Source of the DNA: an uncultured Pseudomonadota bacterium
GTDB taxonomy: Bacteria; Myxococcota_A; Bradymonadia; Bradymonadales; Bradymonadaceae
Reading direction: 5' to 3'
Length of the DNA stretch: 39,026 bases
NCBI GenBank assembly: GCA_950059285.1
Contig: CATLTV010000027.1
Span: 1 to 39,026 of the forward strand
Shown here: positions 7,620 through 37,537 of the stretch, piece after piece
Position numbering within the stretch: position 1 is the first letter of the stretch
How the letters are laid out: each line of letters starts with the position of its first letter
Notes under the pieces: generated by a model
Told to the model about the DNA's origin: nothing
The model's input: only the letters and a program-made list of their open reading frames with translations
Databases searched by the model: none
Made by a program: the position numbers and the translations under genes

Positions 7620-8318
7620 TCAGTCTCTCAACAGGTAGAGTAGCTCTTTGGCGTGATGTGCTTTAAATCTTCCGCGCAGAAGCAAGAATGCACGCTGTGC
7701 TGAAGCGGACCAGTCGAGCATATCTTCAAAGTCAAACTGGTCGAACTTGCGCCTCATGCCGGCGCGCTCATTGATGACAAAGCAAGCATCCTGCTTGGAG
7801 CAGTGATCGCCATCACGCATGGCCATGAATGGATCATGCGCAAGTACAAATCCCTCACCCTCAGCCCATTCAAGCGTTGTAGAGCGCTCCCAGAGTCCTG
7901 ATGGCTCAAGAATAATGGAGCGGTTCTTGTCCTGTTTTTCGAGGATGCGCTTACGCAGCTCCACCAGAAGATTTTTGTTATCTGTACTTGGTGTGAACTC
8001 GGGAGGCATGCTGATGATCAGCGCCTTGGCAGCAAGCGCGCGTGCCTTCTCAAAGGTGCTCTCAAGGTGTGTATCAATGTCCTTGGCAAGTCGTGGGCTA
8101 GTGCGCTCACTGCTCTTGACGAGGCTAGTGATCAGGTCCTGTTCGACATGGAGCAAGAATGCAAAGCCACGAGGGGAGTCCACCCTCCAGCGGTTCAGTG
8201 TGGCAATCGTGGGTGGGTTCTTCTCACCATTGAGGTCGAGCTCAAGTGCAGTGCACAGTTTGTGGTAGCGTGACCAACCCTGAACGACTTCATCGCATCC
8301 GTAATAATAGTGTGTCAT
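7620..8318 (-). CDS. Divergent DUF72 (YecE-like) protein
   Basis: 232-residue cytoplasmic protein. The order of elements resembles DUF72/YecE TIM-barrel proteins, though divergent: a Thr-x3-Trp then SPRGFAFLLHVEQDLIT (residues about 40-70), ALIISMPPEFTPSTDN (about 116-131, compare LLFQLPPSF in the family), SIILEPSGLWERSTTLEWA (compare AVEFRHxSW), GFVLAHDPF, and a C-terminal HHAKELLYLL. The biochemical role of DUF72 is not established; nuclease or phosphoesterase activity has been suggested. The frame could start at TTG 8384, but that would begin inside a hairpin; ATG 8318 (MTHYYYGC) is preferred. It lies last on a long minus-strand gene series. The family call is an inference from motif order. 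Confidence 0.55.
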   Translation of the reverse strand: MTHYYYGCDEVVQGWSRYHKLCTALELDLNGEKNPPTIATLNRWRVDSPRGFAFLLHVEQDLITSLVKSSERTSPRLAKDIDTHLESTFEKARALAAKALIISMPPEFTPSTDNKNLLVELRKRILEKQDKNRSIILEPSGLWERSTTLEWAEGEGFVLAHDPFMAMRDGDHCSKQDACFVINERAGMRRKFDQFDFEDMLDWSASAQRAFLLLRGRFKAHHAKELLYLLRD

Positions 8319-8384
8319 AGATCTCTTGAATGTATTGTTGTGAGCCTGAATTAATTCCAGGAGCTTTTGGGGTATGAACGTCAA

Positions 8385-8511: not shown

Positions 8512-11500
8512 TCAAGGTTGGAAGTAGACGTTTTCTTTTCCGTAACGTGCCACAAGCTCATCGACTTCTTTGAGCAGGCGTTCACGACGTTTCCAGAAGG
8601 CTTTTTGTTCGGAGCGCGAGATCGAGGTTCCTTTGGGGAAGAGGATCGGATCGACCGTTTTGGGGTCAAGATCTCGGATCGCATCGATCATGCTCTTATC
8701 AAAGCGTTGTACCCAGTCAAAGCGACCCTTGACTCGGCTGGAGAGACGAGATGCCATGGTAGTGCTGTGATCAAGCGAGTAGAAGTTTCCGCGCGTGATC
8801 TGGTTGTCGGGAGCGTTGTTGTATGTGGCGCGTTCCTTGAAGCGGTTCATGTTGTTTACAAGGAAGTCAAAGGTTACGACGCCCGAGAGCTGCGTGGCGA
8901 GTTCCTTGGTGTCCATGGACTGTCCTGTTTGAGCAAGGATCGCCTTGTACAGTGGCTCATCCTCGCGGGACATGTTTTCAAGCGCCTTGGCAAGCGGTTC
9001 CTGGAGGGCTTTTTTATCCTCGTATGCAGTGACCCATGGGCGCCACGTGTTGGTGTATGAGAAGGGCCACATGGCACCTGGCTCGACCCAGCGTTTGAGC
9101 ACACCGCGAAGTTGTCGTGGGGCTGCCTTGTCCCTGGATGCGTTCCATGAAAGTTCGGAGAAACGCTCTGATGGTGGTTTTGCGCCACTTCCTGTGGAGG
9201 ACATCAGGTGATCAAAGACCGCTGCATCGATGACCGCAGGTGTGGCCTGCGGGATGTCAAAAGTGCAGGCGATGAGCTGACACAAACGCCATGCGGTGAC
9301 ATCTTTTTTCCAGGCATCTTCCTTGTAGCGTTGTTGCTCGGGGTGGAACGCCCAGACCTGTCCCTGAGCATCAGTGAGCTTGAAGACAAGACCTTGCCCG
9401 GAAGGGGAGAGCGTCATGGTGTCGCCATGAGAGCTCTTGGTGATGGTTGTAGGTGAGAGATCCTTGAGAGAAGGATCATTTCTGAGCGCCTCATCCTTGT
9501 AGCTCTGGAAAAGCTCCTGATGTGTGCCTGACGCAAGCCCCGAGGTTGCCACTTCTCGAAGTGTTTGAAAGTCGTTGGTTTCTTTGAGGGTTTTGGCGTA
9601 AAGTTTTGTGGCATCAATGGGAGAGTCGGGCATCCAGGAGAGCTGGAAGAGTTGTTTTGCTTCCTCGGCCTTGTTCTCAAGCGCAAGCGCTGATGCTGTG
9701 GCGATTAACTTTGCCTTGTCGTTGAGGTTGGGGAGTGCCTGTGCAATGGCCTGATGTGCCTGAGTGATGGCAGGGCCGATGTCTGTTTGTGCAGGTTCTG
9801 TGGTGGTGGTGTTGGACGTGACAGGTTGCTCTGTTGTGGGTGTGCCAAACAGTTGCTGTCGAAGATCGGGCTGGGTGTAGAGCACGCCTGCTGTGATCAG
9901 TGTGCCTGCGATGATCAGGGCACCCACTGCAATGAGTGGTCCTTTTCCACCTGAAGGTGGTGTGAGCGGATCTTCCTCGGACAGCTCCTCTTCAAAAGGT
10001 TCCGAAGGCTGCTCTGCCACGGCAGCTGGTTCTTCTCCAGGCTCGCTTTGTTCCTCCTCGTGCTCCTCTTCAGGTGAGGAGTCTTGAGGCGTGAAGTCGT
10101 CGAAAGGATCGCTTGATTCGCTTGATTCGGGATCAGCGATGGCTTCAAGAAGGCCTTCCTCAAAGTCATCGTCATCGACCTCAATGGTGGTCTGTGAGAC
10201 GGGCTGTGGCTCAGGCACATCGGGGAGCGCAGGAGGTGCTGCTGTGGACGTGTTGATCTCTTCTTGTGAGGAGTCCTCATCAAGGAAATCAGCAGGGATC
10301 TCTTCGAGTCGTTCGAGCATGGACTCGGAGGGATTTGAGAAATCGCCCAGCGCTGGCGTGGCGGTGTTGGATTTGTCCGAGGGTTCAGACAGACCTTTGT
10401 CCGATGCAGCAGAGTCGGCAATGCTGGATGATTCGCTTGATGGAGAGCGATACTTGGCAAGCAGGCTGTGTGCTTCAATGGCCATCTTCTTTTTGAGGCG
10501 TCGGAACACGGGGTGTTCATTGATCGGTCGCCATTCACCGCCTGGATCAGCGATTTTCTCGGCACCAAGAATGACGCCGCGTTTGACGAGCTCGGTGAGG
10601 CCGCGCTCATCGACTGGTTCGTAGACAATATCTTCAACAAGGAGGCGGTATTGTCCCTGGCCAAGCACATCGATAATTTCGGATGTGGGGAGGCGAATAT
10701 AACCGCTGCCGCGTCGCTCTCCTGCCATCCCCACGCTGTCTTCCTGTCCAAGTCCACCCGAGATGGGGAACAGGCCAGAGTGTGATTCCTGGCGATGGCG
10801 TTTGCGTACAACTGAAGGGGCGTCGTCAAAGGAGACCACGCTCTCGGAGGATGCCCATGAGATGCCATCATTTGAACGGTTGGACTCAGGGGTCAGCGCG
10901 AACTTCTGAAAATTACCACTGGGTGAGTCTGATGCGACAATGGATGCTTCATCAGGAAGCTCGGGTGATGACTTGGGTGAGAGCAAGCTCTGTTGTGTAG
11001 CAACAGGGATTTCACTTGTTTGATCCAGCAAGCTGGCGAGCTGTTTTTTGGGTTTCAACCGCGCGAGCAGGCTTGAGCCACGCGCCTCTGGAGGCTTCCC
11101 TGGCTCAAGATTTTCGGATCGATCGTTTTCAATGCGACGCTTGAAGTTCTCGCCTACGGAGAGATTCTCCTTGGTGTCATCCTTGGCCTCATCTTTTGAT
11201 GGGGGTTTGAGCGCAGAGAGTCGTTGTGAAAGTTCCTTGCTGACCTCAAAGGATGGCTTGGTGGGGTGAAGCATGGGCTTTGCCGCAGGGTGCTCACCCG
11301 AGATGTGTGTGTTTTCTGCTTCAGCAAGAACCTTGTCGAGCTCATCCTCATCGGCACCTGCGGCGAAGAAATCGGTGGAGGCGATGGAGTCTTCCAGATC
11401 CGTGATACTGGGTAGGCCCATCATGGTGCGTGGAGAGGACTGCTCAGGCAAGGATGAGGTCTTGAGCGAGTCAAGCTTCTTGGTGCTGATCTTTTTGCGC

Positions 11501-12573
11501 AGCATGGCTGCAAGTGGCTTGGGTTTTGCTGCGTCCACAGGTGTGCTGTCTTCTTTACCCGTGGTTGTCTCAGGTTCGGATTTTTTATCATCGGCGACCT
11601 CGGAGAGAGGTTCGATGGAGACATCCGTAAAGATATCACTTCTGGATGCCAGTGGTTCGCTGTTTGCGGTGGGCACATCGTCGAGATCATCCTCGGCATG
11701 GACGACAGTTTTATTATCACCGACATCGCCTGCTCTTGGATTGGATCGTATACCAAAGGGACTCTCAGGAAGAGGCTTGTCCTTGGGCTTTGCAGGTCTT
11801 GAGATGATTTGAGCCGAGTCAAGCAGGGGGTTGTGTGTGATCTCATTGGGGTTGGCATCATCGAGCTTGGAGCGTTCGGCCTCAACGATATCACGCATGT
11901 CAAATGGGCCAGGTTCGTCCAGATCCATGAATGGATTGACAGGTTCCATGCCATGCATGGGGGTCTTGGCACCAAGCATATCAACGCCAGAGTGGGGTGT
12001 CTCACTCATGGATGTGAGCGCCTTCTGATCGTTTTGAAGCTCCTGGAGAATTCTGGGGTCGACGTCCTTGGTCGCTTCTTCACGACTGAACAGGTTGCTG
12101 GTGCTGGTGAGCTTGTTCTCAGGTTCCTTGTCGACGAGGTTTTCAAGCTCCTTGTTCTCACGTGTTTGTCGCAGTGACTGTGTGATGCCAAAACCCTGGT
12201 AGGTGGAGTTTAGCCCTCCACCTGCGGGAGTATCAAGGAGTTGATCTGCGACGCGCAGGAAGTCTGTGCCAGAGGAGTCATCTGATGTGCTTTTGTTTGA
12301 GAGTTGCGTGGTGCGAGAAGGGCTGATGGCAGCGCTTCGTTTAAATACACCGCTCCCAGGAGTACTTGCCTTGTCAGTCGAACTTTTGGGTGAGCTGTCT
12401 TCAGACGCACCTGTGGCGTCGTCTTGTGTCGTCAAGTTCAAGGGAATGCTTGTACCGCACTTGGGGCAGGGGATTGGACCCTTGGGGTACTTCCCTTTCT
12501 TTGGCTTGAGTCGGAAGTATGCTGCACACCCTGGACAGGTGAGTTCGATAGTGCCGGGACTTGGCTCGCTCAT
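8512..12573 (-). CDS. Zinc-ribbon, single-pass membrane protein with kinase-like C-terminal domain
   Basis: 1353-residue multidomain protein. It starts with an MJ0042-type zinc ribbon (Cys13, Cys16, Cys36, Cys39). A long Ser/Pro/Asp/Glu-rich disordered stretch (about 45-620) is followed by a GYF_2/DUF4339-like module (about 628-691, ending GGEWRPINEHPVF), more acidic linker, one membrane helix (about 875-898, LIAVGALIIAGTLITAGVLY), and an extracytoplasmic C-terminus. Residues about 1044-1351 resemble Fam20C/PI3K-like atypical kinases: Lys1065 in GLVFKLTDAQG, then FDFLVNNMNRF (Asn1243 where the family has the catalytic Asp of DRH) and YSLDHS (Asp1268, like the metal-binding DNG/DHG). That assignment is inferred from pattern only, and the Asn would be atypical. 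The ATG at 12573 starts directly before the zinc ribbon; a GTG at 12666 adds 31 unconvincing residues. It is the fourth gene of the minus-strand series, 235 bp after the vWA gene. Confidence 0.7.
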   Translation of the reverse strand: MSEPSPGTIELTCPGCAAYFRLKPKKGKYPKGPIPCPKCGTSIPLNLTTQDDATGASEDSSPKSSTDKASTPGSGVFKRSAAISPSRTTQLSNKSTSDDSSGTDFLRVADQLLDTPAGGGLNSTYQGFGITQSLRQTRENKELENLVDKEPENKLTSTSNLFSREEATKDVDPRILQELQNDQKALTSMSETPHSGVDMLGAKTPMHGMEPVNPFMDLDEPGPFDMRDIVEAERSKLDDANPNEITHNPLLDSAQIISRPAKPKDKPLPESPFGIRSNPRAGDVGDNKTVVHAEDDLDDVPTANSEPLASRSDIFTDVSIEPLSEVADDKKSEPETTTGKEDSTPVDAAKPKPLAAMLRKKISTKKLDSLKTSSLPEQSSPRTMMGLPSITDLEDSIASTDFFAAGADEDELDKVLAEAENTHISGEHPAAKPMLHPTKPSFEVSKELSQRLSALKPPSKDEAKDDTKENLSVGENFKRRIENDRSENLEPGKPPEARGSSLLARLKPKKQLASLLDQTSEIPVATQQSLLSPKSSPELPDEASIVASDSPSGNFQKFALTPESNRSNDGISWASSESVVSFDDAPSVVRKRHRQESHSGLFPISGGLGQEDSVGMAGERRGSGYIRLPTSEIIDVLGQGQYRLLVEDIVYEPVDERGLTELVKRGVILGAEKIADPGGEWRPINEHPVFRRLKKKMAIEAHSLLAKYRSPSSESSSIADSAASDKGLSEPSDKSNTATPALGDFSNPSESMLERLEEIPADFLDEDSSQEEINTSTAAPPALPDVPEPQPVSQTTIEVDDDDFEEGLLEAIADPESSESSDPFDDFTPQDSSPEEEHEEEQSEPGEEPAAVAEQPSEPFEEELSEEDPLTPPSGGKGPLIAVGALIIAGTLITAGVLYTQPDLRQQLFGTPTTEQPVTSNTTTTEPAQTDIGPAITQAHQAIAQALPNLNDKAKLIATASALALENKAEEAKQLFQLSWMPDSPIDATKLYAKTLKETNDFQTLREVATSGLASGTHQELFQSYKDEALRNDPSLKDLSPTTITKSSHGDTMTLSPSGQGLVFKLTDAQGQVWAFHPEQQRYKEDAWKKDVTAWRLCQLIACTFDIPQATPAVIDAAVFDHLMSSTGSGAKPPSERFSELSWNASRDKAAPRQLRGVLKRWVEPGAMWPFSYTNTWRPWVTAYEDKKALQEPLAKALENMSREDEPLYKAILAQTGQSMDTKELATQLSGVVTFDFLVNNMNRFKERATYNNAPDNQITRGNFYSLDHSTTMASRLSSRVKGRFDWVQRFDKSMIDAIRDLDPKTVDPILFPKGTSISRSEQKAFWKRRERLLKEVDELVARYGKENVYFQP

Positions 12574-12808
12574 TGATAGCAACTCATCTGGTGAAATCTG
12601 AAAAGTTGAGATAGTTGATGTGGCTGTGAGAGGAACAAACAAACATTGAAACCACAATACGCTCACACCGTCTGCATGTTAGCCTGCTTGAGGCAATGTC
12701 GCAAACAGCGCAATCTGTGTGATCCTCATGGATACAGGCGATGCTGTCAAATTATCGAGCGATCATTTTTCGTCTGTACATGATACATCAGGGTGATTGC
12801 ACGGCTTT

Positions 12809-15145
12809 TCATAGCCTGCCCCAGCGTCTTCGGAGGGTCCACTCCACGCCGAGCAAAAGCAGGATAAGGAGGAAGATAAGTGCGCTGTCCCAGAGTTGAA
12901 CGACCTTACGGCGGTTAACCTTGACGCTGCGGGGCTCCACAAACTGTGGTGTTACTGTGCCCTTGGCAAGGTCTGTGTAGGTGCCTTCTGAAACCTTTGC
13001 GATGCTTTCGAGGAGATCCTGTCGGGGGAGAATGTTCTGATATTCTTGCGAGTTGGGTACGATGAGCAGCATGCGTTGATCCGAGAGATCCTCCTTGCTA
13101 TCCGCGCTTTTGACATGCGCTGACAGTTCGTAGACACCCTGTTGTTCAGGTGTAAAGGGGATCTCTGCCACACCTGCGCTGTTGGTTTTAAATGCGATCA
13201 CCTGTGGTGGTGCAAGCTTCTCTTGTTGTGCTCCTTGATAAGGCAAGACACGACGCACAATCCGAAGTTCACCATCACGGTTTTGTGCAGGTGAGTAGTC
13301 GGGGTTGCTGACACGTACGGACAGGTTGACTTGTTGAGCAGGGAGCCCCGAGTCTTTGGCCAGCTCAAGTTTGACGAGTTTAAGCTCGGGGTCCTTGATG
13401 AGCCAACGGATGGCGTTGTGCCAGAAGAGTTGGTACTCACGTGGTGTGCCGCCATCTTTGAGCGATTCAAAGCTCCAGCGCCAGCTTGAGTCTGTGGTCA
13501 TCGCCATCACGCGTCCCTTGCCATGGGCTCCGATGGTAATGACGGGCATAGGTTCACCGTTTGCGGTGAGTTTTGGGTGTGTGGCAAGGACAGTGCTCCC
13601 CTTTTTTGCTGCTCTGACAATGTTGGTGCCACGTTGTTCGGGAAGGTTCTTCCAAATTTTGGCATTTGTGGCGGGATCAAAAGCAAGCTGTGTGATGGGG
13701 TGCCGTTGTCCTGCCTCGGTCAGCTCGGGTCGAAAGCTTTGCATATCGATGAGCTTGCTTGTGCGAGGGGGGAGTTCAACAGGAAGAGCTGCTTCAATGG
13801 CGGTGTTATCATAGCCGCCACTGGCAAAGGAGAGATCTCCACCAAGCATCGCAAATCCGCCACCTTTTTCGATGAACTGTTCAATATAAGGCAAGTACCG
13901 CTTCATGCTGTAGGGGCCATAATTGAAGTTCTGAAAGATGACGAGATCAAATGATCCAAGCTCCTGTTCAAAGAGTTCTCGGGTAGGAAATGGAATCAGA
14001 CTGAGCTCGTCGTTGGAGGCGTTGTGGAGGCTCTCATTGGTGCGCAAGATAAAGAAACTGATGAGATCCACGTTGGGATTTTGCTTGAGCAAGCGACGCA
14101 TAAAGCGTTCATCCCAGCTTGGGCGCCCGACCACCTGAAGTGCGCGAATTTTATCGCGAATGATGCGCAATAAGAAGATGTCACGGTTGTTATCTTTGAG
14201 TGTTTCTCCATCAAGTTCAGGGACTTCAACCGTGTAGATCTCCTGACCAATTTGGCGAGGAACAAACTCAAAAGAGACCTTGTAGCTGGTTTCATCCTGC
14301 GTGATTTGAATTTCGCGTGTTTGCAAGGGTGCGCCCTCGCGAGTCAGCGTCACAGGAACAAGTTGTTCGCCCAGACCAATGGCCTGAATTTCAACATCCA
14401 CGCTGACCTTGTTGTGTACAAACGCAAAGTCATCGCGCAGGATGCGCGTAATGGCGATATCCTTGACCTCATCCTTGTTGGCTGCGCCAAACGTATTGAT
14501 GGGAGCATCCAGCTCTTTGAGTAGTGAGACACTTGTAGCATCAAGAGGTTCACCTTCCTTGGTGCGGTGTCCAAGCGCGCCAGTGTCGATGCCATCAGAG
14601 TAGAGGACCACACCACCAAGTTCACGATCGGCGAACTTGCTTTGAATGTCCTGGAGCGCCTCGCTCAGGTTGGAGTGCTGACCTGTGGGAGTGATCTTTT
14701 GCAGGTCTTGCAATGATGATTGAGCGGTTTCGGTAGGGGCTTTCCCATAGGAAAAATAGTGGAACTCGTGCTCTTCTTTGGATTGCTCCTCAAGAGCTGC
14801 AAATTGTGGGAGATCCTTTTGGACGCGCTCAAGTCGTGATGACTTGCCATCATCTACTTTCAGCGACATGGATGCTGAAGAGTCCACGAGCACCACGACG
14901 TGGTTCTTGACCTTGGAGATATTCTTGAGGTCCAGCGCAGGTTCAAGCAGCATGATCACGGCGACCAGATAGACCAGTGCACGCAAGGTCACCAGGGTCC
15001 ATCGTCGGGTGGGTTTTAGTCCCTTGAGATCGTAGGCGCTGATGCCGATGACGAGAGCGCCAAGCAAGATGAGCATGACGATCCATCCTGGCCCCCAGTC
15101 ACCCAACCACAAGAGATCACTGCTATTGTAGTCGCCAAAGATCAT
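12809..15145 (-). CDS. Membrane vWA protein with glutamine amidotransferase-like fold (BatA-like architecture)
   Basis: 778-residue inner-membrane protein. Two N-terminal helices (about 20-36 and 50-68) precede a von Willebrand A domain with an intact MIDAS motif DSSAS (Asp88, Ser90, Ser92) and a second metal-site region (GVVLYSDGIDTG). An Ig-like stretch follows, then a class I glutamine-amidotransferase-like domain without obvious catalytic Cys (LVIFQNFNYG ... FIEKGGGFAMLGGDLSFASGGY), another Ig-like region, and a C-terminal helix (LIFLLILLLLGVEWTL). This is the architecture commonly found beside DUF4159 proteins in Myxococcota and Planctomycetes. It overlaps the upstream DUF4159 gene by four bases (ATGA), indicating translational coupling. 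Function is unknown; in related clusters MoxR ATPases participate, but none is present here. Confidence 0.8.
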   Translation of the reverse strand: MIFGDYNSSDLLWLGDWGPGWIVMLILLGALVIGISAYDLKGLKPTRRWTLVTLRALVYLVAVIMLLEPALDLKNISKVKNHVVVLVDSSASMSLKVDDGKSSRLERVQKDLPQFAALEEQSKEEHEFHYFSYGKAPTETAQSSLQDLQKITPTGQHSNLSEALQDIQSKFADRELGGVVLYSDGIDTGALGHRTKEGEPLDATSVSLLKELDAPINTFGAANKDEVKDIAITRILRDDFAFVHNKVSVDVEIQAIGLGEQLVPVTLTREGAPLQTREIQITQDETSYKVSFEFVPRQIGQEIYTVEVPELDGETLKDNNRDIFLLRIIRDKIRALQVVGRPSWDERFMRRLLKQNPNVDLISFFILRTNESLHNASNDELSLIPFPTRELFEQELGSFDLVIFQNFNYGPYSMKRYLPYIEQFIEKGGGFAMLGGDLSFASGGYDNTAIEAALPVELPPRTSKLIDMQSFRPELTEAGQRHPITQLAFDPATNAKIWKNLPEQRGTNIVRAAKKGSTVLATHPKLTANGEPMPVITIGAHGKGRVMAMTTDSSWRWSFESLKDGGTPREYQLFWHNAIRWLIKDPELKLVKLELAKDSGLPAQQVNLSVRVSNPDYSPAQNRDGELRIVRRVLPYQGAQQEKLAPPQVIAFKTNSAGVAEIPFTPEQQGVYELSAHVKSADSKEDLSDQRMLLIVPNSQEYQNILPRQDLLESIAKVSEGTYTDLAKGTVTPQFVEPRSVKVNRRKVVQLWDSALIFLLILLLLGVEWTLRRRWGRL

Positions 15146-15927
15146 TCAACCTTCCAGTTTCTGCGCTTGAGAATAAAGGGGATATGTACCTGATCTTCCT
15201 TGTAATTCACGCAGAGCGCATACATCACAAGGTTGACGCCAAGGCGTATGGCATATTCGCGCTGGATTTCGCCACCTTCGACCTCGTATTCCCACTGGCC
15301 AAAGCCATCACGAGACCATGCGCCCATCATGTCAAACGAACTGAGGATCACAGGGACGCGATCTTGCTCGAAATATCCCTGCATACCTACCTCTGGCGCG
15401 AGTCGTCCACGAGGGTTGTTTTTGATGAGATAAAAGGACTTGTAGATGACATGGTTCTTGGGGATTTTCTGAGGTTTTTTATCAGGATAGATTCGTGCAA
15501 GTTCACGTCGAGCGGCGCGAAGAAAGGGGCCATCATCTAGCCCTTCACTTGAATCAACCACAAGTACACCACCACCTTGAAGCCAGGTTCTCAGAAGGTC
15601 GATCTGTTCATCACTCCACGGGTCAAAGTCGCCCGAGCCGCTTAAAAACAGCATGGGGTAATCAAAGATGTCCTTGCCAAGTAAGACCCGATTGTTTTCA
15701 GCGTTTACCTTGATGCTCGTGCGTTTCTCGACCTCTTGAAGGATACGTCGCAAGGAGGTCTTGCGCGTCAGCGGCTCTGACTTGTCAAGTCTCAGCCACC
15801 CCAACTCAAGCGCATCCTCCTCGCCCATGGCATGAGCCACGGTATGGTCAAGGAGCATGGAGGATGCTGCGGATGCAGCAAGGAGTCCACGGATGCTTTG
15901 GATTAAAAAGGTTCGCCGATTATGCAT
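15142..15927 (-). CDS. Tat-exported DUF4159 protein
   Basis: 261-residue protein with a twin-arginine signal (NRRTFLIQSIRGLLAASAASS, residues 3-23 or so), followed by a DUF4159-type domain: YPMLFLSGSGDFDPWSDEQ, a glycine-rich LRTWLQGGGVLVVDSS, and a C-terminal VNLVMYALCVNYKEDQVHIPFIL. DUF4159 has a flavodoxin/GATase-like fold and regularly accompanies membrane vWA proteins, as it does here with a 4-bp overlap. The start ATG at 15927 lies 35 bp after the helicase stop, so the three genes can be one transcript. No clear Shine-Dalgarno is seen. Biochemical role is unknown. Confidence 0.78.
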   Translation of the reverse strand: MHNRRTFLIQSIRGLLAASAASSMLLDHTVAHAMGEEDALELGWLRLDKSEPLTRKTSLRRILQEVEKRTSIKVNAENNRVLLGKDIFDYPMLFLSGSGDFDPWSDEQIDLLRTWLQGGGVLVVDSSEGLDDGPFLRAARRELARIYPDKKPQKIPKNHVIYKSFYLIKNNPRGRLAPEVGMQGYFEQDRVPVILSSFDMMGAWSRDGFGQWEYEVEGGEIQREYAIRLGVNLVMYALCVNYKEDQVHIPFILKRRNWKVE

Positions 15928-18336: not shown

Positions 18337-20466
18337 ATGACTGTATCCAAGACAATGTCTCTGCGACCCCTGCTGTTGGCGTGTTGCGTGCCTGCGATGT
18401 TCGCGTTTTCGGTAGGCTGCTCCAAGGGCTCTGAATCCAATGCAGAGGCTGCACGATGCACTCTGGATGAGGACTGTGACTCGGGCTCCTACTGTGCTTC
18501 TGATGGCACATGCAATAGCACATGTGGCCCTGATAACGCATGTACCGATGGCAAGACGTGTACAGCACGTGGCCGATGTGAAGATCTTGCGACACCTTGT
18601 GAGCTTGCGTCTGATTGTACCATGCATCCAGGTGGCGATCCCTACTGTGATGGTGGCACCTCCATTGTGCCTGGAAACAGTGAGCGCTGTGCACTGCCCG
18701 AGGGGGCTGAAGAGCGCGTGTGCATCTACAACGATGAGCGCGTGGTGTGTTTGAACGGCTGTAATGAGGATACAGGTGAATGTAACCCCGAGATTCCCGA
18801 CCCCTGTGAAGGCATCTCATGTGATATGCCTGAGGCGAACTCATGTAAGGACTCCATGACTCTGATCGAGTACAACGCTCAGGGTATTTGTGATGAAGGT
18901 GAGTGTTCTTACCAGTCCAGGGAAGTGAACTGCCCTACAGGATGTGAGAACGGTGCGTGTAATGCAGGTGTGTGTGAAGAGGGCACCTGTGATGAGGCGA
19001 TGCCTTCGGCTGCAATTTGCTCCTCTCAGACCCCTGACCTTGCGATCTCCTATGGTGGAGAGGCAAGCTGCGTGGAAGATATGGGAATGCCAAAGTGTGA
19101 GTTTGAGGCTTCCTATGAGCTGTGTACTTACACTGGTGCAAGCTGTAGCGATGGTGCATGTGTTGATGCGATCGCACAGAGCGGTGAAGTGATCGTGTCC
19201 GAATACATGGTTATCCCCGCCGGTGATGATTCCGAGAAATTCTCCAAACAGTGGATTGAGCTTTACAACACCACGGATGCAGCGATCGAGTTGCAGGGAT
19301 GGAGCATCGAGTATCAGACACAGTCACAAACACATGTGATCGCGCCTGGTGATGATGGCATGGGTTCTCTTGTCATTGAGCCCAAGTCTCACCTGCTGAT
19401 CTCCAATGGTTCTGATCCTCTTGGTGATGGTACTGCGCCTGATTATCGCTACAGCGATATCTTGCTTGGCTACCAGGGCAAGCTCCTGATCAAGGATGGT
19501 GCTGGTGCAGTGGTGGACTATCTCTTCTGGGAGAATGGCTCCACAACTGATGCGAGCGCGCGTCAGATCAAGGCGGGCAACGAGCTGAGCGCGACGGCCA
19601 ACGACTCTCCTGATGCATGGTGTCCAAACCTGTCGGATTCCTTCGGTAGCACAGGTGGTTATGGTACTCCTGGTGCAACCAATAGCGCGTGTTCGGATGA
19701 TCCCTGCGCAGGTAGGACCTGTGATGCAAAGCCTGAGAGTTACTGTAAGGATCTCTCCACTGCGGTGGCTTATACTGTGGATGCACCAGTCTGTCAGGTG
19801 TCTCGATTTGGAAGTCCCTACTGTGATTACGTGCCGATGGAGCAAGCCTGTGAGGGGGATACACCTTACTGCTTGAGCGGTGGCTGCATTGCTGCACCTG
19901 ATAATATCGCAAGCCAGCCTGGTCAGTTGATTATTACCGAGGTCATGGGCGACCCGAGTGGAACAGACACCGAGCGTGAGTGGATCGAGGTGTACAACAC
20001 CACAGACTCCGAGGTTTCATTGTTTACGCTCAAGATTGAGGACAATGAGGAGGGCAACAAGTTTAGCTCTGTCGAGATCCTTGATCCTTCAGCAGTTGTA
20101 CCTGCCAGGGGTTATGCTGTGCTCGCGACCAATGTGGACAGCATGATCAACGGTGGAATTGAAAACGCCTATGTGCTTGGTAAAGGCGTGCTCAAGAACA
20201 CTCCCGATGTGGATATGGCCACAGGTGTGAGCGTGATGACGCTTCGCCTTGTGACCGCCGATGATATGCTGATTGATGAGGCGTATTATGGCACTCCTGT
20301 CAGCGGTGAAGCGCAGCAACTTTCACTCTCCACCTATACAGATGCAGGCGTGACTGACTTCGCACCACTGAATGATACCGAGGCTAATTTCTGTTTGGCG
20401 ACAGTTGATTACGGTATGATGAGCGGAAAAGGTAGCCCAGGTGCTGCCAATGAGGAATGTCCTTGA
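18337..20466 (+). CDS. Cysteine-rich lipoprotein with two lamin-tail domains
   Basis: 709-residue predicted lipoprotein. The signal peptide ends in FSVGC with Cys28 as lipidation site and Ser at +2, which favours outer-membrane sorting by the usual rule. Residues about 40-280 are rich in paired cysteines (CTLDEDCDSGSYC, CGPDNACTDGKTC), a pattern common in myxobacterial secreted proteins. Two lamin-tail domains (LTD) follow, at about 283-450 (IVSEYMVIP ... QWIELYNTTDAAIELQGW) and 527-705 (IITEVMGDPSG ... EWIEVYNTTDSEV), separated by another Cys-rich stretch. LTDs are Ig-like adhesive or binding modules often found on surface nucleases, but no enzyme domain is attached here. It is a single-gene unit ending in a 52-bp palindromic terminator. 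Role: surface protein of unknown ligand. Confidence 0.82.
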   Translation: MTVSKTMSLRPLLLACCVPAMFAFSVGCSKGSESNAEAARCTLDEDCDSGSYCASDGTCNSTCGPDNACTDGKTCTARGRCEDLATPCELASDCTMHPGGDPYCDGGTSIVPGNSERCALPEGAEERVCIYNDERVVCLNGCNEDTGECNPEIPDPCEGISCDMPEANSCKDSMTLIEYNAQGICDEGECSYQSREVNCPTGCENGACNAGVCEEGTCDEAMPSAAICSSQTPDLAISYGGEASCVEDMGMPKCEFEASYELCTYTGASCSDGACVDAIAQSGEVIVSEYMVIPAGDDSEKFSKQWIELYNTTDAAIELQGWSIEYQTQSQTHVIAPGDDGMGSLVIEPKSHLLISNGSDPLGDGTAPDYRYSDILLGYQGKLLIKDGAGAVVDYLFWENGSTTDASARQIKAGNELSATANDSPDAWCPNLSDSFGSTGGYGTPGATNSACSDDPCAGRTCDAKPESYCKDLSTAVAYTVDAPVCQVSRFGSPYCDYVPMEQACEGDTPYCLSGGCIAAPDNIASQPGQLIITEVMGDPSGTDTEREWIEVYNTTDSEVSLFTLKIEDNEEGNKFSSVEILDPSAVVPARGYAVLATNVDSMINGGIENAYVLGKGVLKNTPDVDMATGVSVMTLRLVTADDMLIDEAYYGTPVSGEAQQLSLSTYTDAGVTDFAPLNDTEANFCLATVDYGMMSGKGSPGAANEECP

Positions 20467-24611: not shown

Positions 24612-27600
24612 TTATGAGCGCTTACGACGCCTGAACAGACCCACAAGGCCGAGCAAGGCGAGCGGAGCGAGATCGGAGGGCTGCCCCCCTTGTGATTGCT
24701 GACAACCACCTGTGAGGATGAGGTCCGCATAGGGGTCATCTTCCACAGTCACGCTGACGCTGTTGCTGTTTGCCACAAGACCATCCTTGCTGGATGTTGC
24801 GGTGATGGTGTGATCACCAGAGGTCACATCACTGACGTCAAGGCTCCAGTCACCGTTGTCATCCGAGGTTGTGGTTCCCACAGACTCACCGTCAATGAAG
24901 ACCTCCACATCAGCACCAGGCTCTGTGGTACCTGTGACGGTGAAGTCAGCAGGGACAGTGTCACCATCAGCGGGTGTGGTGATGGCAACCTCAAGCGGAG
25001 CGAGCGTGTCATCCACGGTGACTGTGATCGTGTCAGAGTCACCTGGAATACGCGCCTCGATGGTGTGCATGCCAGCGTCGAGACCATCCACAGGGATACT
25101 CCAGTTACCGTTCTCATCCGAGGTTGTGGTGCCAACGACCATGCCATCGACGAGGAGTTCGACCTCTGTATCTGCCTCGGTTGTACCTACGACAGTGAAG
25201 TCAACGGGCACAGTGCTTCCATCAGCAGGTGTGGTGATGTTGACCTCGGCAAGCATCGCTTCAAGATCCACGGTGACTGTGACAGAGTCAGTCTCACCAT
25301 CAGAGGTGGCATCAATGGTGTGCTCACCTTCTTCAAGACCTGTGATGTCGAAGGTCCAGTCGCCATTCTCATCGGCGGTTGTGGTTCCCACCACGGTGCC
25401 ATCCACAGAGATGGTCACGTCTTCGCCAGGAGTGCCTGTACCCGTGACGGTGAAGTCTGCGGGGACAGTCATGCTGTCGGCCGGGAATGTGATATCGAAT
25501 GCAGGAGCTTCGACGACCACGACGTTCACAGTATCTGCAAGAGATGGGGTGCGTGCCTCAACCTCATGCATGCCTTCAGCCTGTTCCGTGACATCAAAGC
25601 TCCATGTGCCATCCTCGCCGGCAACGACCTCGCCGACCTTGACGCCATCCACGAAGATCTCCACGGTTTCACCCGGAGTCGCCACACCGCTGACAGTGAA
25701 GTCAGGCATGACAGTGCTTCCATCGGCGGGCTGTGTGATATCAAGCAGGTCCTGCACAGGGTAGGAAATGTCAAGATAATCAGGGACATCGTTGCCGTTG
25801 AGGTCAAGCGCATCCGAGGGGTTGCCATCGAGGTTTGGATCTGCGCCTTCATCACGTGTGGGGATGCCGTCACCGTCATCATCCACATCAAGGTAGTTGG
25901 GTGTGCCGTCCATATCTGTGTCAAGGAGCGTTGCTGGTGCATTGTCTCCAAGCTCAAATGTGGTCAACACGTTGTCGTTGTCATCGTCCGTGTCAAACAC
26001 GTCAGCAATGCCATCCATGTCCGTGTCACGAGGAGCGCTGGCATCGGGGACTTCGACACCATCAAACACACCGTCACCATCGGTGTCGGGGTTTGTGGGG
26101 TCACTGCCGACAAGACGCTCATCACCATTGCTCAGGCCATCCATGTCTGTATCGCCTGTGTCACAAGCAAGCGCGTCAGGGTTGGGATTACATGGGTCAA
26201 GAGGATCGGGATCGATGTCGTTGGGAACGCCATCAAGGTCCGTGTCACCAAACTGGCAGGCAAGCGCTGAGGAATCAGGATCGCAAGGATCAAGATAATC
26301 AGACACGCCGTTCATGTTGGTGTCGTCGTTGCTGTAATCGCCATCCATGTTCACGTCCTCATCACGAGTCAGGACGCCATCACCGTCGTCATCGGGATCA
26401 AGGTAGTTCGGTAATGTATCGCCAAGCAACGCGTCTGCGTTGTCATTGGTGGGATCGCCGTCACCATCAAGATCCTCGTCGCGAGTGAGGATGCCGTCGT
26501 TGTCATCATCCTCGTCGAGGTAGTTGGGGGTGCCGTCGCCATCGGTGTCGTCGTTGTCGGGGTTTCCATCACCGTCGAGGTCTTCGTCGATGTTGGGGAT
26601 ACCGTCGCCATCGAGGTCACCATTGGGGCCATCCTGGTCATTGGGATCAAGCCAGTCAGGAGTGCCGTCACCATCGGTGTCGTGTTCGTTGTAGTTACCG
26701 TCGCCATCGAGATCCTCGGAGAGTGTGGGTTTGCCATCACCATCGTTGTCAGGATCAAGATAGTCAGGAGTGCCGTTCATGTCGGTATCATCGTTGACAG
26801 GATTTCCGTCGCCATCAATGTCCTCGTCGATGGTGAGCACGCCGTCATTATCATCGTCCGTGTCGAGATAGTTGGGGGTGCCGTCCATGTCAGCGTCATC
26901 GTTGGTAGGATCGCTGTCGCCATCGATGTCCTCGTCGGCAGTCAACACGCCGTCGTTGTCATCGTCTGTGTCGAGGGCATCGATGATGCCATCCATATCG
27001 GAGTCCTGAGGTGCGTTGACATCGGGAAGTTCGGTGCCATCAGGGATGCCATCACCGTCGGTGTCAGGATCTTCAGGGTTTGTGCCCTGTGCACGCTCGT
27101 CGCCGTTGGTGATGCCGTCCATGTCCGTGTCACCTGTGTTGCATGCCAGTGCATTTGCATCAGGGACGCAGGGATCGAGAGGCTCGGGGTCCATGGTGTT
27201 AGGTACGCCGTCGCCATCAGGATCGCCGTTGATGCAGGCCATGGAGGTGTCATCAGGATCACAGGGGTCGAGGTAATCAACAAGGCCGTTCATGTTGGTG
27301 TCATCATTGCTGAAGTCACCATCCATGTTCACGTCTTCATCTGCTGTGAGCACGCCGTCACCGTCGTCATCGGGATCAAGGTAGTTGGGCACCATGTCAC
27401 CAAGGATAGCATCGCTGTTATCGTTGGCAGGTGTGCCGTTTCCATCAAGATCCTCGTCACGCGTCAGGATGCCATCATTGTCATCGTCGACGTCGAGGTA
27501 GTCAGGAGTACCATCTGCATCGGTGTCATCATTGGTGGGATCGTTATCGCCATCAATGTCTTCGTCCGCAGTGTTCACGCCATCGTTATCGTCATCGACG

Positions 27601-30600
27601 TCGAGATAGTCGGGTGTGCCGTCTGCGTCGGTGTCATCGTTTGCGGGGTTTCCATCGCCGTCGATGTCTTCATCCACGGTGAGCACGCCATCGCCGTCGT
27701 CATCGACGTCGAGATAGTCAGGTGTGCCATCGTTGTTGGAGTCATCGTTGGTGGGGTCGCCATCGTTGTCGATGTCTTCATCAGCAGTCAGGACGCCATC
27801 ATCATCATCGTCTGTATCAAGCGCGTTGATGAGTGTGTCGCCATCGGTGTTGATGGGTTGTGAAGGATCGCTGCCCACTTCGGTGCCATCATCGATGCCA
27901 TCGCCGTCGGTGTCAGGATTCATGGGATCGGTGCCGATGCCATCTTCCACGCCATTGGTCAGACCATCGCCATCGAGGTCGCCGCTTGGACCGTCCTGGT
28001 CATTGGGGTCAAGCCAGTTGGGTGTGCCATCACCATCGGTGTCGTGTTCTTCGTAGTTACCGTCGCCATCAAGATCCTCGGAGAGTGTGGGTTTGCCATC
28101 ACCATCGTTGTCGGGATCAAGATAGTCAGGTGTGCCATCGTTATCCGTGTCATCATTGGTAGCGTCGCCATCACCATTGATATCTTCGTTGATGGTGGGA
28201 ACACCGTCGTTGTCATCGTCAGCATCAAGGTAGTTGGGGAGCGCATCACCATCAGTGTTGTCAGTGCGTGCGTCGCCGTCGCCATCCAGATCCTCGTCAC
28301 GAGTGAGGATGCCATCGTTGTCATCATCGGCATCAAGTGCGTTGATGAGGTTGTCGCCATCGGTATCCACAGGATCATTGATGTTTGCGACCTCCACGTT
28401 GTCACGCAGGCCATCACCATCGCTGTCGAGGTTCTCGGGGTCGGTGCCGATGGTACGTTCCTGACCGTTGGTAAGGCCGTCCATATCGGTGTCACCCGAG
28501 TCACATGCAAGGGCATTGGGGTCTGGCACACAAGGATCACTGTCATCAGGGTCCATGTTATTGGGTGTGCCATCGCCATCGCCATCACCTGTACCACAGG
28601 CGGGGTCGTTAGGATCAGGTTCACAGGCATCAAGGTATTCTGCGATGCCATTTCCGCCAATGTCATCGGAGGGATCACCGTTGGTGTTGATGTCCTCATC
28701 AGCAGTCAGGACGCCATCGTCGTCATCGTCGTTATCAAGAGCGTTGATGAGTGCGTCACCATCGGTGTTGCGTCCACCTTCAGCATCTTCACCAGCAAAG
28801 CACTCGCCTGTCACGGCGATGGTGCCATCACAGAGGCCATCGCCATCAGTGTCTGCGTTGTCAGGATCGGTGCCGATCAAGTCTTCCTGTTCATTGGTGA
28901 TTCCATCGCGATCAGGATCGCCCTGGGGACCATCGTTATCGTTGGGATCAAGCCAGTCAGGAGTGCCGTCACCATCGGTGTCGTGTTCGTTGTAATCGCC
29001 ATCACCATCGAGATCCTCGGAGAGTGTGGATTTGTTGTCCCCATCATCATCAGCATCACGGTAGTTCGGGAGTGCATCGCCATCAGTATTGTCGTTGGCG
29101 GGGTTGCCGTCGCCATTGATGTCTTCAGCAGCCGTCAACACGCCATCATTATCATCATCCGTGTCGAGATAATCGGGCAGGTCTGTGCCATCGGTGTTCT
29201 GAGCATCAGAAGGGTTACCATCGCCGTTGGGGTCAGGGTTCTCCAGCGCAGTCAGGACAGTATCGTTGTCGTCATCGGCATCAAGGTAGTTGGGGAGCGC
29301 GTCACCATCGGTGTTGTCGTTGGTGGGGTCTCCATCGTTGTTCAGATCTTCATTGGCGGTGTTGATGCCATCGTTGTCATCGTCAGCATCGAGTGCGTCG
29401 ATGAGCATGTCGCCATCGCTGTTTTGACCGTTAACAGCGTCCTCACCTGCGACACATACGCCAGCCACGGCGATGGTGCCATCACAGAGGCCGTCGCCAT
29501 CAGTGTCTGCGTTGGTGGCGAGTGTGCCAATCATGGACTCCACGGCATTGGAGATGCCGTCGCCATCTGTGTCACCTGTGGCACATGCTGGATCGTTGGG
29601 ATCAGGGTTACATGGGTCCACAGGATCTGGGTCGGTGGTGTTTGGTTCACCGTCGCCATCAGGATCACCTGTAGGACATGCCAGTGAGTTTGCATCTGGA
29701 ACACATGGTTCAACCGAATCAAGTGTGCCGTTTGTGTTGCTATCGATCGCTTCTGCGCTTGTGTCGAGCGCGTCAGCATCATCGTTGTCATCCAGGTAAT
29801 CGGGGAGCATATCTCCGCCGATGAGCATGAGGTCTGTGTTCAATGCATCCGAGGGATCGCCGTCACCGTTGGGATCTGGGACCTCGTTTGCGGTGAGCAC
29901 GGTGTCGTTATCATCATCGGTGTCGAGATAATCGGGCAAGTCTGCGCCATCTGTGTTCTGAGCGTCAGAGGGGTTGCCATCGCCGTTGGGATCTGGGTTC
30001 TCAAACCTTGTGTGGATGCCATCGTTGTCATCATCGACATCGAGGTAATCAGGCGTATCTGCGCCGTCCGAGTTTTGTGCGTCGGAGGGGTTGCCATCAT
30101 TGTTTGCGTCAGGGTTTTCAAACGCCGTCAGGATGCCATCATTGTCATCGTCAGGATCAAGGTAGTTGGGCAGCATGTCGCCATCGGTGTTCAACCCTGC
30201 CTCATAGATATCGTAGATACCGTCGCCATCACTGTCTGGTTCAAAACCAGTCATGCCACCATTGGGACGCTCAATGTCGCCCACGTTGGGCATGGTGTTG
30301 GAGTTCTGAGGTGTAGCACCATATGGAATCGGTGTGCTGTTGTTGTTGCGGGCGTATGTGCCCGCAAGACCGTGGCTGACATCAGGAGCGCATGTACCAT
30401 TGAGCGTTTCGAGGAAGATCCTCCCGCCAGCGCCACCGCCGCCTGTGCCGTGTGCATCGCCTGTTCTGACATTACCACCGTTGCCACCTTGGGCGCGAAG
30501 GTCTGTGCAGTTGGCTGTACCTTCAATGCGGAGGATGATGGCACCGCCAGCACCACCACCACCAGCGCCATCGTTACCTGCTGTGACGGGAGAATCTCCC

Positions 30601-31667
30601 GTGGTCGCGACGCCCGCACCGCCACCATTTGCAGAGAGGACACCAGAGCCCGAGAGCGCCTGTGCGCGAAGGTATATGACGCCGCCGCCATCACCGCCCG
30701 AGGTGTTCACATTGTTGTTTCCGTGTCCTGCGCCGCCGCCACCACCAAAGGAGAGATGGGAGGAGAAGGGGTAGCTAACTTCAGCGCCACCATAACCGCC
30801 TGTGTTTCGACCCACAGCGGGCATGGAATTTGGTTCCTGATCCGCGATCCATGTGCGCCCGCCGAGTCCGCCTTCGCCACCGTGACCGCCGCCGCCGCCA
30901 CCCGAGTTGTGGCAGATACCGCCACCTGCACCTGTGCCTCGGTTGCCTCGGCCTGTGGCGCTATTGCCATAAAAGTCAAAGAGGTAGCCTTCGCCCTTGT
31001 TAATGCCATCGGGGTAGCTTTCATCAAGACCTGTACAGGCAAAGTTACTGCTACCGTTGCGTTTGGCACCGCCACGAAATCCCTTGAAATCCACGTTCAC
31101 CGCGGAGTTTGCGGCCATTGTGATCTCGCCTTGGACCAGTGCTGCGACCACGCCGCCTGTGTTTCCATCCCAATCGGGAGCTGTGATCGATGCGCCCGAG
31201 TTCAACGTCAAGGATGTGTATTCGGGGACAACAATCACCTGACCGCCATCCTCGTCGTATGTGTTGTTCAGCGGTTCTGTCAGCGTAATGTTGGGGCCTG
31301 CCGCCTGTGCAACACGTGCAAACTCCCAGTGGCCTACGCCCTGTGTGCTGATATCAAACGGGCCTTGATCTCCACTTGCTGGAGGGGTGGAGGGCTGGCC
31401 TGATGCCTGCCACACCATGATCAGGTCGCCCGCATTGACTGTGCCACCATTGTCTACTGTAAGCGTGGTGTCTCCCTGACTTGCGCTGCTGATTCCCACA
31501 TAGCTGTTAATCACCACATTGGGTGCGCTAATGGTCAGGCTTCCATCCTGACCATTACCCAGGCTGAAGTAGTCTGGACCCGCAAAGACAACGGTGGGAT
31601 CGGTGAAGCTTAATGCGCCTACACACGCCAGTCCGATGACCGAGGGGAGTGATAGTTTTTGTCTCAT
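24612..31667 (-). CDS. Giant surface protein: Gly-rich domain, thrombospondin type 3 repeats, Ig-like repeats, MYXO-CTERM-like tail
   Basis: 2351-residue secreted protein. A signal peptide (residues 1-30, ending VVFA) is followed by a Gly/Asn-rich region (to about 470; [20 protein letters not shown] at its start, then GGGGAGG clusters) resembling AgmC-like myxobacterial proteins. Residues about 476-1962 are thrombospondin type 3 calcium-binding repeats, variants of [19 protein letters not shown], arranged in higher-order blocks punctuated by paired-Cys segments (PCVPDxxALAC). Four Ig-like domains of about 80 residues follow (about 1975-2313, each opening xxITxPADGxTVPxDFTVxG). The end, GGCQ then a Leu-rich helix and FRRRKRS, fits a MYXO-CTERM-type sorting signal that leaves the protein anchored at a Cys on the surface. 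ATG 31667 is chosen because it starts the signal peptide; the open frame continues 70 codons upstream without coding character. Likely a long Ca2+-stiffened adhesin or motility-related filament. Confidence 0.85.
25780..30240. repeat. 4.5-kb tandem array encoding thrombospondin type 3 repeats
   Basis: Imperfect short repeats (on the plus strand variants of GCCATCACCATCGGTGTCG) run through the centre of the giant gene. On top of these, a block encoding [28 protein letters not shown] occurs around 26600-26760, 27960-28110 and 28910-29040, and a block with two Cys pairs occurs around 26150-26290, 27110-27270, 28480-28640 and 29570-29720. This points to segmental duplication in steps of roughly 1-1.4 kb. 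Copy number may vary between strains. Confidence 0.85.
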
Positions 31668-31895
31668 GATTCTACTTTGGGTTGTAACACTCTGTCTGCT
31701 CTCAATAAAAAAATGAAGAAATATTAAAATCCTGCACTTTTTTATTAAACAACAATACGAGTGTGTCGTTTGTAACCAGTGACGTGGTGATGACGTCTGG
31801 CTATAAGTTACCTCTTCAAAAATGTAAGAGAGTGGTTCTCTATCCTTGGAAATAATCACCTTGCAGTCGAAAGTCAATAGCCTAAGCGTTTGATA

Positions 31896-36769: not shown

Positions 36770-37198
36770 TTAGCCTCGTCGACTCATGGCACGTGCGTAA
36801 AGCCATTCCAGAGTCTGACGGTCTTGTTTGGATTCTTTAAGGAACTCAATGCCATAGGCTTTGCGGCCATCATCCGTGGTCACACGTCTTACAACAGCTT
36901 GAACCTCGGCAGTGCAGCGCTCGCCCTGTCCAACAAGTGTGATGTCCATGTGGAGTGTGGCGTCTTTTTCGATGGTAGCTTCTGTGCGAAGCAGGCAGCC
37001 GCCTGGGCTGAGGTTCAGGACCTGACCAAAGATTTCGCGGGTGCCTTCCTCAAAGGTGACAGAGGCAAATGCTCTGACAGGCGCACGGCGAATACGTGTG
37101 GTGGGACCGCGCTGCTCAAACATGGGCGAACCAGGTCCGCTGGAGAGCGCTTCCATTTGACGCTGTGGCAAGAGAGTGCTGAGTAGGGTGCTAAACAT
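36770..37198 (-). CDS. PilZ-domain protein, putative c-di-GMP receptor
   Basis: 142-residue protein with a PilZ domain (about 35-135). Both halves of the cyclic di-GMP site are present: RxxxR at Arg38-Arg42 (RRAPVR) and the N-x-S-x-x-G motif at Asn62-Gly67 (NLSPGG). ATG 37198 is chosen because GGAGG lies six bases upstream and because residues encoded further upstream (to 37375) have no domain character. It is the first gene of a two-gene operon with the LysR-type regulator. Single-domain PilZ proteins typically transmit c-di-GMP levels to motility, polysaccharide or transcription machinery; the partner here cannot be inferred beyond the linked regulators. Confidence 0.88.
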   Translation of the reverse strand: MFSTLLSTLLPQRQMEALSSGPGSPMFEQRGPTTRIRRAPVRAFASVTFEEGTREIFGQVLNLSPGGCLLRTEATIEKDATLHMDITLVGQGERCTAEVQAVVRRVTTDDGRKAYGIEFLKESKQDRQTLEWLYARAMSRRG

Positions 37199-37537
37199 GA
37201 TGGCCTCCGTGGCGTGTGAATCTTCTGGCGTCCTGCCAGGTGAAAAGAACTCTACAAGACTCATCGTAGGCGAAGATGGTGGAGTCGCAAATTTTTTGAA
37301 CAAAAAGCTCGCAATCAAGTCCTTACAACGTAGGTTTTGAGGTCTCATCTTATCGCGTGGTTGAAGTGTCAACACTCTAATGATAACCTCTCAGGTCCTT
37401 GGTTCCCTGAACAAACATCTGTTTTTAATAAGTGTTGTCGCGATCTGATGCGGTATGTTCTTCAAAGAACATTACCTGAATGTGTAGCTGTACGTTGGGA
37501 TAGGTTTGGATGTCGTGGCGAGAGAAAGTGAGAGTAT
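37199..37537. other. Divergent regulatory region, PilZ operon / FHA activator
   Basis: This 339-bp spacer contains no gene. It holds three inverted repeats: CTGGC-GTCCT-GCCAG (about 37224-37238) near the PilZ start, GTTGA-AGTG-TCAAC (about 37360-37373), and the strong ATGTTCTT-CA-AAGAACAT at 37455-37472. No sigma-54 promoter (TGGCAC-N5-TTGCA) was recognised on either strand. Confidence 0.45.
37455..37472. promoter_or_regulatory. Inverted repeat upstream of the FHA/sigma-54 activator
   Basis: ATGTTCTT-CA-AAGAACAT has perfect 8-bp arms, 66 bp before the activator start. The geometry fits an operator for a dimeric regulator, for example the LysR-type protein or an autoregulator. It is not followed by a T-run, so it is not a terminator. 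Confidence 0.4.

Follow-up and report, generated by a model that had tools for sequence, protein, structure and literature searches.

The gene studied here lies on the minus strand of a 39,026-nucleotide stretch of contig DNA (the window) from an assembly of 6.6 Mb in 441 contigs (G000), whose host bacterium appears to be related to Lujinxingia. An alternative GTG start at position 12666 would lengthen its product by 31 residues. The features of the protein and the neighbouring genes are given in Table 1.

Table 1. Features of the gene, its product and the adjacent genes (positions in the window)
Feature	Position	Strand	Remarks
Gene under study	8512..12573	minus	1353 aa, ATG start
Zinc-ribbon-like module, N-terminal	12445..12543	minus	Two CxxC motifs (C13 to C39)
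Conserved module of about 95 aa	10450..10734	minus	Residues 614-708, N-side of the membrane helix; weakly GYF_2-like
Single transmembrane helix	9880..9936	minus	Residues 880-898; hydropathy 2.43
TPR-like helical hairpins, predicted	9475..9675	minus	Residues about 967-1033, after the membrane helix; helices of the model
Fam20-type protein-kinase-like domain, predicted	8515..9441	minus	Residues 1045-1353; model, structure matches, clade A profile homology
K1065, retained	9379..9381	minus	Putative equivalent of the Fam20C beta2 Lys K271
H1077	9343..9345	minus	Replaces the FKP ion-pair Lys (Fam20C K285)
D1091	9301..9303	minus	Replaces the helix-C Glu (Fam20C E311)
C1098 and C1103	9265..9282	minus	Conserved Cys pair
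N1243	8845..8847	minus	Replaces the catalytic Asp (Fam20C D458)
D1268, retained	8770..8772	minus	Metal-binding Asp (Fam20C D478), in LDHS instead of IDNG
Upstream neighbour, VWA + GATase1-like protein	12809..15145	minus	Pfam
Upstream neighbour, DUF4159 protein	15142..15927	minus	Pfam E 2.9e-38
Downstream neighbour, weakly DUF72-like protein	7620..8384	minus	254 aa; Pfam E 0.0035, below cut-off

The paired CxxC motifs of the N-terminal module were kept in 30 of 34 homologs of the window protein, and its profile scores for zinc ribbons of the MJ0042/Zn_ribbon_4 type stayed below the cut-offs (15.6 bits against 30.3 for Pfam Zn_ribbon_4, and 12 against 20.9 in a second comparison). A long low-complexity linker separates these motifs from the module that begins at residue 614, which showed 44-72% identity over aligned stretches in 16 syntenic relatives, compared with 23-35% for the C-terminal part of the protein. 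Pfam GYF_2 gave weak matches to this module in four of 27 members (best E 0.032) and none in the window protein itself, and no match was found in the PDB, so that a confirmed GYF domain was dropped. The zinc ribbon described in an earlier note on this DNA is putative, with conserved cysteine pairs and a sub-threshold Pfam score, and the GYF-like label given there to the second module is weak.

The helix at residues 880-898 is the only strong membrane helix of the protein, and a strong hydrophobic segment was present in 33 of the 34 homologous open frames. Within 15 residues of the helix, the 33 homologs together had 91 Lys or Arg residues on the N-side and 28 on the C-side; the N-side was richer in 25 proteins, poorer in one and equal in seven. 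According to the positive-inside rule, this bias places the C-terminus probably outside the inner membrane, and we consider it very likely that the C-terminal domain of the window protein is located there. The alignment also points to a possible disulfide between C1098 and C1103, each of them conserved in 72 of the 74 aligned rows. A lipobox or another export-like hydrophobic segment preceded the kinase domain in 25 of 27 distant Myxococcota relatives, as called by a simple hydropathy rule, and not by a signal-peptide predictor, on frames that may start too early; of the remaining two, one begins at the very edge of its record and the other runs into masked bases at this place. Presumably the zinc ribbon and the 95-residue module are cytoplasmic and provide the coupling. 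Cytoplasmic modules linked across the membrane to a secreted domain, as suggested previously, are therefore probable as regards a single-pass, zinc-ribbon-anchored protein with its C-terminus outside, and doubtful as regards GYF. A similar layout exists in GltJ, from the gliding machinery of Myxococcus, which has a cytoplasmic zinc ribbon and GYF domain, one membrane helix and a periplasmic part; we know of no kinase fold in GltJ.

An AlphaFold2 model of the C-terminal domain, built on an alignment of 56 sequences (the window and 55 of 68 homolog references), had a mean pLDDT of 91.8 and a pTM of 0.91, and the model of an intact paralog from the same genome (L002, of clade A as defined below; 46-reference alignment) reached 96.3 and 0.93. 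When the window model was compared to the PDB with Foldseek, all 21 matches at E<=0.001 were Fam20 structures (best 5yh0_E, 3.3e-7), the first match outside Fam20 being VPS34 at 1.8e-3; the paralog model gave only two matches at E<=0.001, both of them Fam20 entries. VIA-align also placed hydra Fam20 first for the window model (Z 17.4, rmsd 4.0, 260 aligned). On the basis of these models, residues 1045-1353 can confidently be read as a protein-kinase-like domain whose nearest solved structures are those of Fam20. The earlier note had suspected such a domain from the order GLVFKL, IPQATPAV, FDFLVNNMNRF and YSLDHS after the membrane helix. These segments were present as described, and their order is beyond chance because the homologs align through all of them and the AlphaFold2 model matches Fam20 structures. 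The Fam20-type kinase fold was thus borne out by the structure-based search, which yielded neither a confident match to a non-kinase family nor a lack of ATP-site geometry.

Single-sequence searches were uninformative. With the window domain alone, phmmer against the PDB returned chance matches only and Pfam gave no Fam20C (PF06702) match up to an E-value of 10, with EutQ at 0.21; scanning a genome-contig collection with the window protein revealed no relative, and the whole protein had no match in a plasmid collection. The family could be detected only through a profile of clade A, made of 46 references, which matched human FAM20C at 2.5e-6 and C. elegans Fam20 (4kqa) at 1.6e-5, the FAM20C alignment spanning both the FKP and the DRH/DNG regions. 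Designed TPR proteins, the top two PDB matches of this profile (1.3e-10), were discarded as they correspond to the helical stalk and not to the kinase domain, Fam20C being third; TPR profile matches obtained for clade A homologs support the TPR-like nature of this stalk. Among the 46 clade A members, 35 matched Pfam Fam20C with E up to 10 (best 6.3e-4) and two matched HipA_2 (best E 0.068). The clade A paralog of the window's own genome scored 18.2 bits with PF06702, for a cut-off of 26.8.

Passages in three papers on Fam20 (PMC5865150, PMC5413348, PMC4421793) describe K285 and E311 as an ion pair, D458 as catalytic and D478 as metal-binding; K271 is given there as another Lys that binds phosphate, and E306 as specific to Fam20. 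The FKP Lys, NxDR and DN motifs of clade A lined up with their Fam20C counterparts when aligned by HMMER. The FKP Lys was present in all 47 clade A rows with a residue at that position, and the beta2 position was K or R in 45 of 47 (counts of 47 include two fragments, L065 and L068, one of them gapped at each position). At the four key positions (ion-pair Lys, helix-C Glu, catalytic Asp and metal Asp) the window protein has H, D, N and D. The numbers N1243 and D1268 given in the earlier note were correct, and Asn1243 aligned with D458, in agreement with its proposed place at the usual catalytic Asp. The Lys of GLVFKL had to be reassigned: it had been taken as the canonical catalytic Lys and corresponds instead to the beta2 Lys (K1065), the position of the ion-pair FKP Lys being occupied by H1077. 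That K1065 corresponds to K271 is suggested by its place one strand before FKP and by our reading of the alignment. An E306-like acidic residue at -5, defined only by its offset from the helix-C Glu, was found in 11 of 47 clade A and 12 of 23 clade B rows; the window has an Asp there.

Since both the ion-pair Lys and the catalytic Asp are lost, the domain is most likely a pseudokinase, that is, a kinase fold lacking conserved catalytic residues, and in all likelihood it has no kinase activity. The choice between kinase and pseudokinase, previously left open, is now inclined to the second by the changes of Lys to His and Asp to Asn and by the erosion of the whole clade. The metal-binding Asp and the beta2 Lys are kept, so that some nucleotide binding or weak activity may persist.

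Homologs of the window domain were found in 34 of 57 related genomes, its own included. We aligned 74 rows and built a tree of 72; L001 and L075, duplicates of the window and of L002, were excluded before counting, and the fragments L065 and L068 entered neither the tree nor the four-position count. One branch (97/97) separated 46 clade A rows from 23 clade B rows plus three distant rows of family f2 (L072-L074), which were kept apart from both clades. The 23 clade B rows as one group were not rejected (p-AU 0.67), and the window belongs to this clade. All four key positions, allowing E or D at helix C, were intact in 43 of the 46 clade A rows versus none of the 23 clade B rows, three of which kept three positions (among them L010, with both Asp), 11 two, four one and five none. 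The metal Asp was lost in 20 of the 23, and the same positions were lost in many different ways. The long branches of clade B in the tree indicated fast evolution.

In every one of the 21 genomes of the window's family (f1), its own included, each of the two clades was represented by at least one copy, the clade A copy being seen only as a fragment in two of them (L065 and L068). The clade A paralog has the same zinc-ribbon, membrane-helix, TPR and kinase layout as the window protein. Families f4, f5 and f6 of the class contributed only clade A rows to the tree, representing A without B. In f2, the sister family in the same order, four of five genomes matched the clade A profile, and the copies read had eroded positions and were of the B type. 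No clade A copy was detected in these four genomes, which are 83-95% complete, so that one could have been missed. B-type copies with no detected A argue against a strict pair and suggest that B can do without A in some cases; the idea of a strict A-B dependence is weakened on these grounds. The f2 copies L175, L176, L177 and L178 had a strongly eroded kinase domain and no intact paralog was detected with them; L177 and L178 also had zinc-ribbon-like CxxC pairs, with a homolog of the window's downstream neighbour on the same contig. One genome, G004, bears three eroded clade B copies (L149, L150 and L159), two of them outside the conserved block. The clade A gene of Lujinxingia vulgaris TMQ2 (L081), a species of Bradymonadales in the NCBI taxonomy, was 100% identical over 312 residues to the gene of an f1 genome (G018). 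As a carrier of the clade A gene, this strain is a possible test organism.

In the kinase domain, dN/dS ranged from 0.059 to 0.095 among three clade B orthologs of one genus and from 0.078 to 0.090 among their clade A counterparts in those genomes; for four clade B genes at greater distance it was 0.13-0.23, with synonymous sites near saturation. Clade B is maintained under purifying selection in these two orthologous sets, the window gene itself being too diverged for the calculation.

Computation gave us the fold, the homology, the loss of catalytic residues and the orthology with synteny. From these we propose, with a probability of roughly two in three, that the gene encodes a single-pass membrane protein whose extracytoplasmic Fam20-type domain is a non-catalytic pseudokinase. 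The zinc ribbon and the small conserved module would lie on the cytoplasmic side and, outside, a TPR-like stalk would end in a Fam20-type domain devoid of the residues for normal phosphotransfer. Binding is the simplest role to assign to a domain that folds, is under selection and lacks the normal catalytic set; the pseudokinase may be a folded platform which binds a partner outside the inner membrane and couples it to the cytoplasmic modules. Conservation is stronger in the 95-residue module than in the pseudokinase domain, a hint that the partner of the module is more constrained. The intact clade A paralog would be one favoured partner in f1, and the VWA/GATase1-like, DUF4159 and DUF72-like proteins encoded by the neighbours are other candidates. 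Regulation resembling that of Fam20C by Fam20A is attractive because an intact paralog of the same layout occurs in every f1 genome; that the window pseudokinase regulates this paralog is a tentative idea, and a role with the neighbour products is about as likely, because of both the f2 genomes and the conservation of the gene block. It is rather doubtful that Bradymonadales evolved independently a pair like Fam20C and Fam20A, in which a rapidly diverging pseudokinase would activate or aim an exported, membrane-anchored kinase in the same membrane and cytoplasmic zinc-ribbon modules would relay a signal across it; if true, an extracytoplasmic pseudokinase would regulate the phosphorylation of envelope or secreted proteins in bacteria.

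An accessory part in a complex with the VWA/GATase1-like, DUF4159 and DUF72-like products, and not a regulator of the paralog, is a reading that we hold possible at less than even odds. Apart from the window, clade B has 22 rows, and synteny was counted in 20 of them (all but L038 and L040): the downstream gene was present beside 17 of the 20, the VWA/GATase1-like gene beside 12 and the DUF4159 gene beside 10, the upstream side being truncated, or nearly so, at the end of the contig in L156, L157 and L159. None of these genes was found in the 14 clade A regions checked, so clade A genes do not lie beside those of clade B. In two f2 genomes the downstream gene shares a contig with the B copy, and no A was seen in f2, which also favours a complex. 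However, the syntenic regions L151 and L158 were devoid of the VWA and DUF4159 genes, the f2 regions matched neither the VWA/GATase1-like nor the DUF4159 gene, and gene order alone shows no interaction. Regions L143, L149 and L150 of clade B were not syntenic. No neighbourhood common to the clade A regions was found, save in small groups of close relatives; the gene directly after the intact paralog of the window's genome (L002:2506-3279) resembles by eye an M15-type peptidoglycan peptidase.

It is unlikely that PI4K type II, CtkA or HipA/HipT, which are also atypical kinases, stand closer than Fam20 to the domain which we read as a Fam20-type pseudokinase. These proteins belong to the same wider fold group, and the structural lead of Fam20 is small, because the VIA-align Z values of PI4K type II (beta) and CtkA, 16.0 and 15.8, come close to 17.4, with HipT at 10.4. 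In addition, Pfam HipA_2 matched eight of nine scanned distant Myxococcota relatives, all below threshold, and a further relative (L182) narrowly passed its cut-off (27.7 versus 27 bits). Foldseek over the whole domain, on the other hand, favoured Fam20 by about four orders of magnitude, the clade A profile matched PI4K2A only at 0.42, and two relatives passed the Pfam Fam20C cut-off; HipA and, also by the sequence profile, PI4K were left as less likely nearest families.

An active but atypical kinase, in which K1065 and D1268, and perhaps H1077, would support ATP binding and phosphotransfer, is improbable. Both K1065 and D1268 are retained, and Fam20C is described in a passage of PMC5413348 as using more than one phosphate-binding Lys, but the window protein has substitutions for both the ion-pair Lys and the catalytic Asp, and clade B loses the same positions in various ways, including the metal Asp in most rows; H1077, N1243 and the clade pattern led us to set this reading aside as first choice. 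We also give little credit to a kinase fold with another chemistry, as in SelO (AMPylation) or SidJ (glutamylation): such activities of pseudokinases have precedents, named in a passage of PMC10870513, and purifying selection shows that the domain matters, but a non-exhaustive search revealed no new conserved residue set in clade B at the pocket positions counted. A decaying duplicate with no function is hardly credible, since the fast evolution, long branches and varied residue losses of clade B are largely overridden by its presence in all 21 f1 genomes, mostly syntenic and as open frames, with dN/dS well below 1 (window gene excluded as too diverged).

Relatives of the Fam20-type domain occur more widely in Myxococcota. 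The clade A profile, which detects a wider related family, matched 79 of 282 genomes of this phylum; the Pfam Fam20C model exceeded its cut-off in 16 of the 188 scanned with it, as against none of 14 controls. Two proteins, L181 and L183, exceeded this cut-off with 45.1 and 32.1 bits, and L181 matched human FAM20C at 6.7e-13 in a single-sequence search. At the level of sequence comparison, an unbroken series thus leads from the window via clade A to accepted Fam20C domains, clade A itself remaining below the cut-off. Both L181 and L183 look exported, and bacterial Fam20C domains such as theirs deserve a survey of their own. In three other proteins (L104 and, at loci of G150 and G256, L179 and L180) a clade A-like kinase domain stands behind an FGE-sulfatase-type domain, with a Pfam FGE-sulfatase match for L180; the N-termini of all three are lipoprotein-like.

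ATP is scarce in the bacterial periplasm, a difficulty which also concerns the clade A enzyme. Provided that the domain is indeed exported, the question arises of how protein phosphorylation beyond the inner membrane of a bacterium would proceed and from where the ATP would come.

With Fam20C, the secretory-pathway Ser/Thr kinase of PF06702, the window protein shares the kinase fold, the order of the FKP Lys, FD[FY]L..N.DR and [IL]DN elements and, by its predicted location, an extracytoplasmic setting, and clade A keeps the catalytic set. It differs in the absence of the ion-pair Lys and the catalytic Asp, in the added zinc ribbon, membrane helix and TPR-like stalk, and in its Pfam match, which was absent for the window domain and sub-threshold for clade A. 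CotH, the spore-coat kinase, was in the VIA-align list of the clade A model with Z 11.8, a much lower structural score than that of Fam20, and we know of no membrane anchor of this kind in it. A passage of PMC12189002 notes this bacterial atypical kinase as similar to Fam20C. Fam20A is presented in parts of PMC4421793 and PMC7948968 as a vertebrate secreted pseudokinase that activates Fam20C. As in that case, an inactivated paralog coexists with an intact one in all 21 f1 genomes, though not in f2, and the metal-binding Asp is kept in both Fam20A and the window; but Fam20A keeps the ion pair and the catalytic Asp and has lost E306, as described in a section of PMC4421793, whereas the window has lost other residues. 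The corresponding passage of the review PMC7948968 describes Fam20 across animals and Fam20A only in vertebrates, so any parallel would be convergent.

The FAM20 cluster is named in a passage of PMC9758233 as an example of eukaryote- or Metazoa-specific groups. In the present data, Myxococcota have Fam20C-type domains and, in one family, every genome has an inactivated paralog as well, for which a literature search of open-licence PubMed Central papers yielded no published description.

Elsewhere in the window, two proteins had lamin tail domains (LTD; 18337-20466 and 31979-35707), in the second of them fused with an amidohydrolase and with thrombospondin type 3 repeats. Positions 24612-31877 hold an open frame of 2421 aa, accompanied by several long frames in antisense, and two more genes encode a PilZ protein (36770-37375) and a protein with an FHA domain and a sigma-54 activator (37538-38956).
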